Part shown: one piece after another, positions 59,289-63,938 of the stretch
Layout of the letters: each line of letters starts with the position of its first letter
How positions within the stretch are numbered: the first letter of the stretch is position 1
Assembly: GCF_001517935.1 (NCBI RefSeq)
Contig: NZ_LOQF01000006.1
Span: forward strand, 1-64,000
Origin: Sneathia sanguinegens
Lineage (GTDB): Bacteria; Fusobacteriota; Fusobacteriia; Fusobacteriales; Leptotrichiaceae
Direction: 5' to 3'
DNA length: 64,000 nt
Notes under the pieces: generated by a model
Seen by the model: the letters and a program-made list of their open reading frames with translations, nothing else
What the model was told of the DNA's origin: nothing
The model's database searches: none
Made by a program: the position numbers and the translations under genes

Positions 59289-59795
59289 TTACCATTGCCA
59301 TAAACCTAATAAAATTAATAAACCTGGCAACCAACCTGTTAATATTCCTTCAATTAAAGCTACATATGAAGAAAATTTTCCTAAATTCTTTTTTAAACTA
59401 CATTCTACAAAGCCTAAGAACCAGAAAAATGCCCATGCTATCCATATTAAAAATGCATATAAATTAGCTCTGTCTAAATATGAAGCTATTAAAGCATTTA
59501 TACATACAAATAAACAAAAGTATCCAAAAGGTCTTAATTCCAATGAAAATATTGTATTTGCAAATAAAAAGAAATATGTTATTGCGAATAGAAAACCTAT
59601 TGCTGGTCCAAAGAATGATGTACTTTCTGCTCCTTTTGTGATTAATAATACCGCAGATACTACATTAAAGAAAAATATTATACAACCACAAATTAAATTC
59701 AAAACAGCTGTTGCTTTTTTATCAAAGCCTATTATTCCTGCCAAACCATTATTGATTAAAACTAATCCTACATAAATTAAAATCAATCCAAACAT
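59289..59795 (-). CDS. AmiS/UreI-family channel protein
   Basis: Six hydrophobic segments in 168 residues, start MFGLILIYVGLVLINNGLAGIIGFDKKATAVLN and end GLLILLGLWQW, with GYFCLF and WIAWAFFWFLGF near the fifth helix: pattern of the AmiS/UreI family of acid-activated urea or short-chain amide channels. No urease, amidase or nickel genes exist in the window. Its own promoter (59832-59837 TATAAT) and terminator make it a single-gene unit. Urea or amide conduction is the family expectation; the real substrate is unknown. Confidence 0.85.
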   Translation of the reverse strand: MFGLILIYVGLVLINNGLAGIIGFDKKATAVLNLICGCIIFFFNVVSAVLLITKGAESTSFFGPAIGFLFAITYFFLFANTIFSLELRPFGYFCLFVCINALIASYLDRANLYAFLIWIAWAFFWFLGFVECSLKKNLGKFSSYVALIEGILTGWLPGLLILLGLWQW

Positions 59796-59837: not shown

Positions 59838-59865
59838 TCATAAATATGTAGAATTATAAATTAAA

Positions 59866-59885
59866 AATGAGCATTTCTGCTCATT
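59866..59885 (-). terminator. Terminator overlapping the EIIB-protein stop
   Basis: AATGAGCA / TGCTCATT with a four-base loop; TTTTT-like tail on the minus strand. It closes the plsY-to-EIIB operon. Confidence 0.8.
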
Positions 59886-60367
59886 TATTTTTTTAATTTT
59901 TTCATTTCTTCTGCTATAAATTGAACTTCAGGTCCCATTATAACTTGAACAGAACTTTTATCCACTACTATAGTATCTATTGCTCCTGCTTGTTTTAATA
60001 TTATTTTATTTACTTTTGATGAATCTTGTAATTCCATTCTAAGTCTAGTTATACAATTATCAATTGTAACTATATTTTCTTTTCCACCTAAACCTTCTAT
60101 AACTTGTTTTGCTACTTCTGCATAATTTTTCATTACTTCTTCATTTTCTTTTTCTTCTTCTGGTGAACTACTTACTAATCTATTTACAAAGAAATACTCA
60201 AGAATGAAATAAATTACTAATACAACTATGAAAACTACAACTCTATAAGTTGTATTTTCTATTTTTGTACCTATAAGGTACCCTATTGCCATTAATACTA
60301 TAGTATTAATTAATAATACACTTAAAATATTTGAAAATCCACATTTTTTCATAGGACACTTATTCAT
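59885..60367 (-). CDS. Membrane-anchored PTS EIIB (glucose-type) domain protein
   Basis: Two hydrophobic helices (residues about 12-33 and 42-62), then an acidic linker and a PTS EIIB domain of the glucose/N-acetylglucosamine class (about 78-158). The phosphorylation motif is TIDNCITRLRMEL with Cys105, and GAIDTIVVDKSSVQVIMGPEVQFIAEEM follows, as in EIIB-Glc. No EIIC domain, no EIIA and no neighbouring sugar permease exist. Normal EIIBC chains have ten helices of EIIC before EIIB, so this is a two-helix stub with an intact phosphorylatable domain. It is the last gene of the dnaN operon (28 bases after dnaN), with AAGGAG. Confidence 0.88.
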   Translation of the reverse strand: MNKCPMKKCGFSNILSVLLINTIVLMAIGYLIGTKIENTTYRVVVFIVVLVIYFILEYFFVNRLVSSSPEEEKENEEVMKNYAEVAKQVIEGLGGKENIVTIDNCITRLRMELQDSSKVNKIILKQAGAIDTIVVDKSSVQVIMGPEVQFIAEEMKKLKK

Positions 60368-60395
60368 TATATACTCCTTTCACCTAATAATACCA

Positions 60396-61514
60396 TTAAA
60401 TTTTCAATGGCATTGTTAAATAAACATTATTATTCTTATTGTCATCTTCCTTGAATAAAACTGCTGATATTTCATCTGACATATCTATTTCTAATATTTC
60501 AGAATTTTTTACAGTAGCAAGATATTCAAGTATAAATTTAACATTTAAATATATTTTTATATCTGGGCAATCCTTAATTATATTTAATTCTGAGCTCCCA
60601 TTTCCAAATTCTCCATAACCAGATATTTTTAACTTATTTTCAGTAAATAGAAATTCTGCGACATCTTTTCTTTCTTTCTTATCTCTTACAAAAATTAAAA
60701 CTTTTGATAAGGCTGTGTATAAATCTGTTTTATTAACCTTTATTTTCTTTTCAACCCTTACATTATCTAGTATAGCAATATAATCAGGAAATTGCAATTC
60801 TACAACCTTAGAAATAACTTCTATATCATCTAATTTGAATAATACCTTAGTACCTTCTGATCTAAAAATTACTTCATTTAATTCACTTTCTCTAAATATT
60901 TTAAGTAAGGCTTGTGTTAATTTTAAAGGTACACTAACACTTACATTTTCATTTGTATTATTTTCTTCAATTTCAATTTCCCTATACATCAATCTATACG
61001 AATCAGTTGCAACTAATTTTAAAGTCTTATCTTCTACTTCAAATTTCAAACAATTGATTTTTGCTTTTTCTTGATCTGTTGTAGCTGCAAATTGTGTTTT
61101 TTCAATATTTTCTAATAAAAGTTTCTTATCTACAATATATTCAACACCATTTATTACATCTAATTCAGGTATCTCATCAATTTCAATTAAACTATAATTT
61201 GAAATACTATCTGGAGTAACAATTTTTATTTGATTATTTTCTTCTTTTATTTCGACTTTTTCATCTATTACTTTACGAAGATATTCTTCAACTAGTCTAT
61301 GTTTTATTACTATTTTACCTTCATTTATTATTTCTGCATCACAATAACATTTTATAAATAAATGATAACCCATAGCTCTGAACTCAAGTTTATCTTCCTT
61401 TGTTTCTATATAAATACCTACCCTTGAGTTATCTATTCTTTCATCTAAAATAGCATTTTCTACTATTCTAATTGCTCTTAAAAAGTCTTTTGTTTTAACT
61501 TTAATATCAAACAT
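60396..61514 (-). CDS. dnaN: DNA polymerase III beta sliding clamp
   Basis: Homodimeric clamp giving processivity to DNA polymerase III. Three structural repeats in 372 residues: the start MFDIKVKTKDFLRAIRIVENAIL, middle LLLENIEKTQFAATTDQEKAKINCLKFEVEDKTLKLVATDSYRL, and LQFPDYIAIL. The C-terminus VYLTMPLKI fits the clamp's MPxR/L ending. Unusually, dnaN sits here among sigma factor, gpsA and plsY genes rather than beside dnaA. GGGGTAAAT lies before the ATG; it starts two bases after the sigma factor stop. Confidence 0.94.
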   Translation of the reverse strand: MFDIKVKTKDFLRAIRIVENAILDERIDNSRVGIYIETKEDKLEFRAMGYHLFIKCYCDAEIINEGKIVIKHRLVEEYLRKVIDEKVEIKEENNQIKIVTPDSISNYSLIEIDEIPELDVINGVEYIVDKKLLLENIEKTQFAATTDQEKAKINCLKFEVEDKTLKLVATDSYRLMYREIEIEENNTNENVSVSVPLKLTQALLKIFRESELNEVIFRSEGTKVLFKLDDIEVISKVVELQFPDYIAILDNVRVEKKIKVNKTDLYTALSKVLIFVRDKKERKDVAEFLFTENKLKISGYGEFGNGSSELNIIKDCPDIKIYLNVKFILEYLATVKNSEILEIDMSDEISAVLFKEDDNKNNNVYLTMPLKI

Positions 61515-61516
61515 AT

Positions 61517-62344
61517 TTACCCCTTCATTTTATTTTTTTCATCAAAATGATTTTTTAACTTTGCTATTGCTTTTTTTTCAATTTGTCTAACACGTTCTCT
61601 AGTTATATTCAACAATTCACCAATTTCTTTCAATGTGTGAATTTTAGTATTATATAAACCATATCTTAATTTAAGTATTTCTTTTTCTCTATCAGTTAAA
61701 GAACTATCAAGTAATTCTTTCATTTCATTTAATTGTTCTTCTTTAATTATATCCTCTTCCACATTAGCTTCTTCACCTATTACATCTTCCAAATAAATAT
61801 TATCTCCAATAGTTTCACTAAAAGAAACTATATCTTGAAACTCATTAATAAGTAATACTACCTTACCCGGTTTAATATTCATTTTTTCTGCAATATAATC
61901 TATAGGTGGATTTTCGCCATGTTCATAGACATATTCATTAATTAATTTATTAACCTTTGATAATTGTTCATGCTTATATGATGGTATTCTAATATCTCTA
62001 CCTATGTTAATAATAGATTTTTTTATTGCTTGTCTTATCCACCAAACTGCATATGTACTAAATCTATGACCTTTTGTACTATCGAACTTTTCTATTGCCT
62101 TTAATAAACCTATATTTCCTTCACTTATTAAATCAATTAAAGGAAGTCCATTACCTAATGATTTTTTCGCTACTGAAATAACTAATCTTAAATTAGCTAA
62201 AACTAATTTGTTCTTTGCTTCTTCATCATTTTCTTCCTTAATTTTTCTTAAAAGTTCAAATTCCTCTTCCTTATTCAATAGTTGATATTCTCTTAAATCT
62301 GATAAATATAATGAAATTAGATTCATTTCATTTTGCTCTTCCAT
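61517..62344 (-). CDS. Sigma-70 family RNA polymerase sigma factor, short
   Basis: Regions 1.2 to 4 in 275 residues: [20 protein letters not shown] (1.2), [61 protein letters not shown] (2.1-2.4), [16 protein letters not shown] (3.0), a compact region 3, and region 4 [16 protein letters not shown] plus [14 protein letters not shown]. Region 1.1 and the non-conserved insertion of primary RpoD are missing, so it looks like a group 2 (RpoS/HrdA-type) factor, or a minimal primary factor. Its -10 contact helix matches vegetative sigma, consistent with the TATAAT promoters seen throughout. The ribosome site TAGGGGG overlaps the gpsA stop. Confidence 0.88.
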
Positions 62345-62352
62345 ACATCCCC

Positions 62353-63345
62353 CTAAAATTCAGATCTTAGATTTCTATTCATAAATAATTCAGTAATAGT
62401 TTTTGTTGATTGTTTGTTATACAATATATTATATAACTCAGTAAAAATAGGTGTTCTTAAATTATTTTTTTCTATTATTTCTTTTAAAGCCTTTATTGTA
62501 GTTGCTCCTTCAGATACCATTTTCATTTCATGAACTACCTCTTCTACTGTTCTACCACGACCTATTTGCTCACCAAGATATCTATTTCTACTATGTTGAC
62601 TTGTACAAGTAACTACCAAGTCTCCAAAACCTGTTAAGCCCATAAAAGTTTTAAAATCTGCTTTATAAAACTTACCTATTATTATCATTTCACCTAGACC
62701 TCTTGTCATAAGAGCTGCCTTTGTATTATCACCATAGCCTAAACCATCTGAAATACCTGCTGCTATTGCTATACAATTCTTAAGTGCTCCTGCTAATTCT
62801 GCTCCTATAACATCTGTACCTGTATATACTCTTAAATAAGTAGTATTAAAAACTTCTTGAACTTTTTTGGCAACTTCCTCATTTTCAGATACTGAAAGTA
62901 TAGCTGATGGTATTTGTTTTGCAACTTCTTCAGCATGAGTAGGACCTGCTAAATGCACATACTCATATTCAAAATCTTTTAATTCTTCTGCTACAATTTC
63001 TGAAATTCTTTTCAAAGTCCCAATTTCAAGTCCTTTTGCAACATTTACAATAATCTTTTTATTTGAAAATTTTTTAAATTTCTTTAGCATATTTCTAAGA
63101 TATTGTGTCGGTGTTGCAAGTAAAATAATATCCACTTTTTCTATAACTTCATTAAATTCTTCAACTATTTTAATATTAGTTGGTAAAATATGTCCCTTTA
63201 AAAAGGTTGTATTTTCCCTTTTTTCCTTTAATATTTTTCTATATTCTTCATTATGTTCATAAAGATAACAAGTGTATCCTTTTTTTGCTAATAGAATGGT
63301 TAAAGCTGTACCCCAACTTCCTCCACCTAATGTTAAAATATTCAT
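62353..63345 (-). CDS. gpsA: Glycerol-3-phosphate dehydrogenase [NAD(P)+]
   Basis: Makes sn-glycerol-3-phosphate from dihydroxyacetone phosphate for phospholipids. N-terminal Rossmann motif [18 protein letters not shown] (residues 5-22), [86 protein letters not shown] with the catalytic Lys, and the substrate motif [29 protein letters not shown]. Length 330 as expected. It follows plsY by 8 bases; both act in the same lipid pathway. AAGGAG before the ATG. Confidence 0.97.
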
Positions 63346-63353
63346 ATAACTCC

Positions 63354-63938
63354 TTATTTATCAAAAAATTTTGCTTCTTTTTTATTTATTAAATTTTTAA
63401 TATTTGATTTATGCTTATATATCACAAAAAGCCCTATTATTATTGAAAAAATAATTTCAGGTGTTGTTCCTTTAAATAGATATACTGCAACTGACAAGCA
63501 TAAAGCACTAACCATAGATGCTATTGATACATATCCAGTTAAAAATACTATAGCAAAAAACACAACCAATAATGCTAATATAGAATAAGGTGAAATAATT
63601 AAAAAAATTCCGACTGTCGTTGCTACAGCCTTTCCACCTTTAAATTTTAAAAATATTGAATATGAATGCCCTATAATAGCACAAATAGCAGCATAGATTC
63701 CTAAATTGGCTCCCATCTTATATCCTATATAAGTTGGTATTGCTCCTTTTAGTACATCTAACACAAGTGTCATAAATCCATATTTATATCCCAAAACCCT
63801 TGCTGCATTAGTTGCACCTACATTACCACTTCCTTGTTGTCTTATATCAATATTTTTAAACACCTTACCTATCCAAAAAGCATTTGGTATACTTCCTATT
63901 AAATAAGAAAATATTAATAAGCATATTACTTTTATCAT
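63354..63938 (-). CDS. plsY: Acyl-phosphate:glycerol-3-phosphate acyltransferase PlsY
   Basis: Integral-membrane enzyme adding the first acyl chain to glycerol-3-phosphate from acyl phosphate. The three family motifs are visible: SYLIGSIPNAFWIGKV near residues 11-26, QQGSGNVGATNAARVLGYKYG near 34-54, and GHSYSIFLKFKGGKAVATTVG near 92-112. About seven hydrophobic segments, 194 residues. It is the first gene of the unit that continues into gpsA, whose product supplies the substrate. GAGGAAAAG lies before the ATG. Confidence 0.96.
   Translation of the reverse strand: MIKVICLLIFSYLIGSIPNAFWIGKVFKNIDIRQQGSGNVGATNAARVLGYKYGFMTLVLDVLKGAIPTYIGYKMGANLGIYAAICAIIGHSYSIFLKFKGGKAVATTVGIFLIISPYSILALLVVFFAIVFLTGYVSIASMVSALCLSVAVYLFKGTTPEIIFSIIIGLFVIYKHKSNIKNLINKKEAKFFDK

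Follow-up and report, generated by a model that had tools for sequence, protein, structure and literature searches.

In the window (the whole stretch of 64,000 nucleotides that was analysed), a reverse-strand open reading frame of 160 codons encodes two predicted membrane helices followed by a complete EIIB domain of the glucose family of the PTS (Table 1). It is the last of five closely spaced genes, plsY, gpsA, a sigma factor gene, dnaN and the EIIB gene, which are separated, in this order, by 8, 8, 2 and 28 bases. Against NCBIfam, dnaN and PlsY scored above equivalog cut-offs, gpsA above two subfamily cut-offs, and the sigma factor only above the general sigma-70 cut-off. The Shine-Dalgarno-like sequence AAAGGAG is found at 60374-60380, 6 bases 5' of the ATG of the EIIB gene, and a terminator-like hairpin ends the group; five such sites were present in the 5.2 kb scanned, with 0.6 expected. 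Promoter-like sites were not above shuffles (39 versus 39.5), and no promoter was placed. An earlier note on this DNA had described the EIIB gene as cotranscribed with the other four; the tight operon layout stands, and cotranscription is what we infer from it. An AmiS/UreI family channel (PF02293, 132.5 bits) is encoded at 59289-59795, right after the terminator of the EIIB gene.

The genome of the window (G000) is taken here to be that of Sneathia sanguinegens, G001 that of S. vaginalis and G007 that of a Caviibacter; the groups g5 and g4 are presumably Streptobacillus and Oceanivirga, and the name S. amnii probably refers to the species of G001.

Table 1. Positions of the features discussed in the text (window coordinates unless a contig or locus is named)
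Feature	Position	Strand	Basis or remark
Two-helix EIIB gene	59885..60367	(-)	ORF and RBS; PF00367 61.3 bits; a 106-domain EIIB profile gives 107 bits
First predicted membrane helix, residues 10-33	60269..60340	(-)	AlphaFold model and hydropathy
Second predicted membrane helix, residues 39-66	60170..60253	(-)	EIIC-tail profile 11.2 bits; AlphaFold model
EIIB domain, residues 80-158	59894..60130	(-)	Pfam; fold match to EIIBGlc structures 3bp3, 1o2f, 3bp8
Cys105 codon, expected phosphorylation site	60053..60055	(-)	Aligns with CITRLR in EIIBGlc chains
Terminator-like hairpin ending the operon	59865..59886	(-)	Begins at the EIIB stop codon
dnaN, upstream neighbour	60396..61514	(-)	TIGR00663 163.5 bits, above cut-off; synteny in G001 and G007
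Sigma-70 factor, gpsA, plsY (rest of the operon)	61517..63938	(-)	ORFs and NCBIfam
ScrA-like EIIC without EIIB	G000:C16:9081-10073 = L054:9081-10073; G001 L143:8390-9394		330 aa; 334 aa
Split sucrose/MurP-type permeases	L267:5254-6708; L268:6213-7669		Adjacent EIIB and EIIC genes
Tandem EIIBs of g5	L044:8838-9338; L045:9162-9662; L046:8368-8868; L047:8688-9182		

The Pfam profile PTS_EIIB (PF00367; cut-off 27) matches residues 87-120. Cys105 lies within DNCITRLR, the C-x-T-R-x-R motif is present and every residue of CITRLR is intact, as the earlier note had claimed. The cysteine of glucose-family EIIBs is the phosphorylation site, and transfer to glucose requires Arg424 and Arg426 in E. coli IICBGlc. 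The AlphaFold model of the protein (alignment of 42 sequences, mean pLDDT 80.7, pTM 0.53) predicts the two helices, followed by a loose linker and, at residues 82-159 (pLDDT >90), the EIIB fold. Foldseek placed the EIIB domain model on the EIIBGlc structures 3bp3, 1o2f and 3bp8 (E 5e-8 to 4e-7), with an rmsd of 0.9-1.2 across 75-76 columns, and phmmer with the EIIB protein matched chains of the same three structures. The nearest NCBIfam models are those of whole EIICBs, NagE (TIGR01998) being the top one with 88.3 bits against a cut-off of 553.2. Since EIIC is missing and the score is below the cut-off, the protein is, as judged from its sequence, a relict of the NagE-type EIICB family and not a member of it.

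Origin of the gene

The loss of the transport domain claimed in the earlier note was borne out. When 13 proteins containing EIIC were compared with the entire 64-kb window by tblastn, the only match at E<0.01 was the EIIB domain of the gene itself. Thus, no EIIC was found beside the gene or elsewhere in the window, nor a degenerate EIIC nearby, which had been named beforehand as an observation that would speak against the proposal. The same had been said of an overlooked EIIC frame; such a frame 5' of the gene was considered and rejected, since the start codon follows dnaN after only 28 bases, which leave no room for it. Alternatively, a full EIICB could be present in the organism, its EIIC part having been lost in the assembly, which is a draft of 32 contigs, and G007 does carry a full EIICB at the equivalent place. 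However, G001, assembled as a single 1.33-Mb contig, also lacks EIIC here, its EIIB gene beginning 2 bases past the end of dnaN; the 28-base gap and the good RBS are consistent with a genuine start codon, and no EIIC interior was found in frame by tblastn. An assembly artefact is therefore highly improbable.

In G007, which belongs to another genus of the family, plsY, gpsA, the sigma factor gene and dnaN are followed by an EIICB of 497 aa and then by a tandem EIIB of 154 aa with two domains. This EIICB reaches 622.7 bits, above the NagE equivalog cut-off of 553.2 (TIGR01998, GlcNAc permease). In the congener G001, the sole other genome of the genus among the matches listed in the search of relatives, dnaN is followed by a soluble 187-aa tandem of two EIIB domains, devoid of membrane helices. 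Identity to the EIIB domain of the window is 66 and 61% for the two G001 domains and 56% for that of the G007 EIICB. An EIIB gene after dnaN was observed solely in G000, G001 and G007 (26 of 30 dnaN loci returned, 36 genomes searched), in a survey in which 2 of the 26 loci stop at a contig end, ORFs running off the fetched flank are unlisted and the EIIB of G007 is visible only in a longer stretch.

In a tree of 106 EIIB domains, for which every fourth of the at least 80 loci from a scan with an EIIB alignment was sampled, the window domain clusters with the two G001 domains (97/97). This clade is nested in another (97/84), to which the domain of the G007 EIICB and stand-alone EIIBs from G007, G004/G013 and g5 also belong; the alignment has 79 columns only and 31 of the 103 inner branches are open, so the branching order within the clade is unsure. 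Because G007 holds a full NagE-type EIICB at this place and the tree groups both EIIBs, the gene is most likely a permease remnant. It very probably represents the EIIB end of a NagE-type EIICB that once lay downstream of dnaN, from which almost all of EIIC was deleted while the last helix was kept as an anchor.

Hydropathy indicates two hydrophobic helices, at residues 14-32 and 43-61. Residues 1-78, compared with a profile of EIIC tails, ranked second of 148 membrane hairpins (that of the window and 147 controls), behind a true EIICB tail (65.0 bits) and ahead of the hairpin of an EIIC without EIIB (8.1 bits); the gap between 11.2 and 8.1 bits is modest, and the 130 tails from which the profile was made perhaps include the top-scoring control. 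The alignment spans residues 32-76, which comprise the second helix and the linker. This gives moderate support to the view that the second helix probably corresponds to the final EIIC helix of the ancestral EIICB. As a source of the first helix, the genome's own proteins gave only weak matches to residues 1-80 (best E 0.02 by phmmer and 0.11 by blastp).

PTS inventory and stand-alone EIIB domains

The 1.29-Mb genome was inventoried from pieces that together leave only about 3 kb uncovered. It contains five glucose-type EIIB domains, four of them in EIICB or EIIBC fusions and the fifth in the window gene, and five glucose-family EIICs, four fused to EIIB and one of 330 aa without EIIB; a fused fructose-type protein of 625 aa is also present (Pfam; typed by reading). 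The EIIB-less EIIC is encoded on a contig other than that of the window, and the two genes are unlinked. Its best model is the sucrose permease (271.8 bits, cut-off 559.3), of which only the EIIC part is covered. The counterpart in G001 is 49.5% identical and has similar downstream genes (a small protein gene and murA, by ORF reading); GLHH and GITEP are retained in both species, and no EIIB was found near the ScrA-like EIIC in either genome. All other EIICs of G001 have a fused or adjacent EIIB (for the fused fructose-type one, size is the only criterion). Each of the two genomes of the genus therefore contains precisely one EIIC devoid of EIIB and one glucose-type EIIB gene devoid of EIIC. 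A stand-alone Crr (EIIA) is present in 10 of the 10 genomes searched.

A search of 60 relatives with the EIIC yielded four further matches close to full length, encoded by open frames of 384-407 aa; short fragments (147 aa in G024, 182 and 110 aa in G035) were left out of this comparison. In G030 and G031, a ScrA/MurP-type EIIC is directly adjoined by a separate EIIB gene, and in G057 and G059 the EIIC has its own EIIB in frame. Judging by the G030 and G031 pairs, the ScrA-type EIICs without fused EIIB that can be checked have an EIIB next door, except in Sneathia.

Between G000 and G001, the EIIB domain (80 codons, compared with domain 2 of G001) shows dN 0.21 and dS 0.94 (dN/dS ~0.23); plsY has 0.20 and 1.00, dnaN 0.13 and 1.25. 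The EIIB-less EIIC evolves fast, with dN 0.42 and dS 1.18 (dN/dS ~0.36). All these figures come from NG86 only, and a dS of about 1 is close to saturation. From these substitution rates, both EIIB and EIIB-less EIIC look as if kept by selection, EIIC more loosely and EIIB about like plsY.

The two-helix EIIB form itself, which the earlier note had proposed to look for in related bacteria, does not appear among the matches listed for 60 relatives, and a scan of contigs with the window protein found none; related stand-alone forms do occur. The scan with the EIIB alignment returned at least 80 loci, with titles mostly of Clostridia, and nearly all of these EIIBs are part of EIICB ORFs, which span ~470-540 aa except for one of 623 aa. 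Shorter ORFs are those of L225 (304 aa), L234 (426 aa) and L255 (149 aa, starting 51 bases from the contig end), and in 6 of the loci a motif search found no EIIB ORF.

Among ten small genomes, a chosen set that includes G000 and G001, one or more stand-alone EIIBs occur in nine, and in seven of these nine no glucose-family EIIC without EIIB was recognised. The typing left out low-scoring EIIC matches (G004 C75, G005 C10, G018 C2), and EIICs of 430-455 aa were called cellobiose type by size, their neighbours being read in G001, G013 and part of G004. Eleven stand-alone proteins, comprising 18 EIIB domains, keep the cysteine in 18/18, the first motif arginine in 14/18 and the second in 18/18; in the tandem EIIBs of G007 and G013 the first arginine is replaced by lysine. 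These EIIBs are mostly two-domain proteins in whose sequences no membrane helices were seen (G001, G007, G013, G004 and g5). Three free EIIB domains (L141:8959-9435 and L048:8379-8645) and a Crr are encoded in G013, whose sole EIIC match is of cellobiose type with its own EIIB. The tandem EIIB of G013 lies near an HPr gene and has two almost identical repeats. In all four g5 genomes read, the genes for a class II fructose-bisphosphate aldolase and a ROK glucokinase flank that for a soluble tandem EIIB of 164-166 aa.

Since seven of the eight other chosen small-genome relatives have free EIIBs and no recognised EIIB-less EIIC, the former do not need the latter, and the free EIIBs of the wider group point to some non-transport role. 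It is conceivable, though we would offer it only tentatively, that in this branch of the family free EIIBs (single, tandem or membrane-tethered) form a class of their own of phosphate relays or sensors, outside permeases. Examples would be the window gene, the tandem of G001 and that of g5 beside the ROK glucokinase. The latter neighbour is suggestive because Mlc, a known target of EIIB, is by profile a ROK protein as well. A literature search found no description of stand-alone, orphan or tandem glucose-type EIIBs, and nothing relevant on NagE2/NagF or on the IIBGlc arginines.

Possible functions of the tethered EIIB

The reading that we favour, on grounds of gene content and with a probability of about 0.45, is that the EIIB may act in trans for the ScrA-like EIIC of the same genome. 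EI and HPr would hand phosphate to the free EIIA (Crr), Crr would phosphorylate Cys105 of the tethered EIIB, and the EIIB would in turn phosphorylate the sugar bound by the separate EIIC. In this way, parts remaining from two different permeases would together form one split PTS permease with its genes at two loci. This pairing is favoured because in both genomes of the genus one EIIB and one EIIC are left over: a two-protein permease calls for an EIIC without EIIB, and there is one in G000 and one in G001. Also in its favour are the EIIB neighbours of the comparable EIICs in G030 and G031, the retention of GLHH and GITEP, the purifying selection on the EIIB and the presence of Crr throughout the genomes searched. 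Of the two activities suggested in the earlier note, donation of phosphate to a separate partner is hence the preferred one, and it now has a candidate partner.

Several facts argue against the pairing. The EIIB is of NagE type and the EIIC of ScrA type, that is, of different subfamilies, their genes are unlinked, and the EIIC evolves fast; moreover, seven of eight relatives keep stand-alone EIIBs without such an EIIC, as described above. In B. subtilis PtsG, splitting EIIBA from EIIC allowed background growth only, even with the TkmA tether (PMC6148471). S. amnii does not ferment sucrose (PMC3535699). A genome that lost one EIIC and the EIIB of another permease, and kept the leftovers, offers a natural experiment on whether subunits from different subfamilies can cooperate in trans.

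A membrane anchor would suit a split permease or a sensor alike. The sensor function, also raised in the earlier note, is possible and less supported, and we consider it doubtful. The EIIB, phosphorylated or not, would bind or phosphorylate a transcription regulator and report PTS flux without any transport partner. As a precedent, a study reportedly bears in its title the membrane sequestration of MtlR by MtlA-EIIB. The predicted model of the window protein is similar to the EIIB seen in complex with Mlc in 3bp8, and free EIIBs without a matching EIIC in g4, g5 and G007 suggest a non-transport role in the family. Dephosphorylated EIICBGlc sequesters Mlc (PMC3901232), and EIIBMtl, non-functional as a cytoplasmic protein, regained activity on fusion to the membrane part of TkmA (PMC6148471). 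The genome encodes two ROK proteins, L311:3536-4714 (392 aa) and L287:17270-18397 (375 aa), one with a winged-helix domain, which are possible candidates for EIIB-controlled repressors. PRD regulators are present too (3 domain matches in 2 proteins), but both adjoin PTS genes of their own, and their control by the EIIB is less likely. The sensor function is also weakened by the absence of the anchor in the congener G001, whose tandem EIIB is soluble, by the full retention of the CITRLR residues, and by the surroundings of the gene, in which the sigma factor of the operon is the only regulator gene.

Rather unlikely, in our opinion, is that the gene is a decaying remnant, in which an in-frame deletion joined the last EIIC helix to EIIB and left a functionless product on its way out of a shrinking genome. 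The genome of 1.29 Mb would be in accordance with this, as would the unlike architectures of the two congeners. The genomes of two Sneathia species measure 1.25-1.35 Mb (PMC13393775), and in S. amnii most PTS systems are reported as incomplete (PMC3535699). The layout is nearly identical in E. coli GlvB, and the E. coli homologues of aglA/aglB are termed cryptic or nonfunctional truncated (PMC5309279); we infer that these homologues are the glv genes. However, the frame and the motif residues are intact, the gene has an RBS and a terminator, the dN/dS of EIIB between the species is close to that of plsY, and in G001 the EIIB has been duplicated rather than lost. Were the free EIIBs regulators, this would bear on the puzzle of the mostly incomplete-looking PTS of Sneathia (PMC3535699).

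Comparison with known systems

Glucose-family PTS permeases are normally fused EIICB or EIIBC proteins. With the NagE-type EIICBs (TIGR01998), such as that of G007, the window protein shares the EIIB domain, the subfamily, the place after dnaN and probably the last EIIC helix; however, these are proteins of ~490 aa, whereas the window protein has 160 aa and no EIIC transport domain. The stand-alone EIIBs of G001, G007, G013, G004 and g5 are likewise of the glucose family and without EIIC, that of G001 at the same locus, but they mostly have two domains and no helices were seen in them, while the window protein has one domain and two helices. The ScrA or MurP-type pairs of G030 and G031 also consist of EIIB and EIIC as two proteins, although these are products of adjacent genes of one system and their EIIB has no anchor.

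The TkmA-EIIBMtl of B. subtilis (PMC6148471) is also a membrane anchor joined to EIIB without EIIC; however, it was engineered and belongs to the mannitol family. An EIIB-like protein of Enterococcus has no phosphorylated residue (PMC10773906) and is thus of another kind than the EIIB of the window.

The closest parallel is GlvB of E. coli K-12 (161 aa, NC_000913 3861987-3862472), which is built like the window protein, with a helix of the EIIC end, a linker and EIIB. GlvB has one predicted helix instead of two, and the EIIB sequences are distant. In addition, its partner EIIC (GlvC) is encoded by the next gene, while in the window there is no EIIC and the candidate lies on another contig, so the window gene lacks the neighbouring partner of the GlvB type. 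The layout itself was already known from GlvB.
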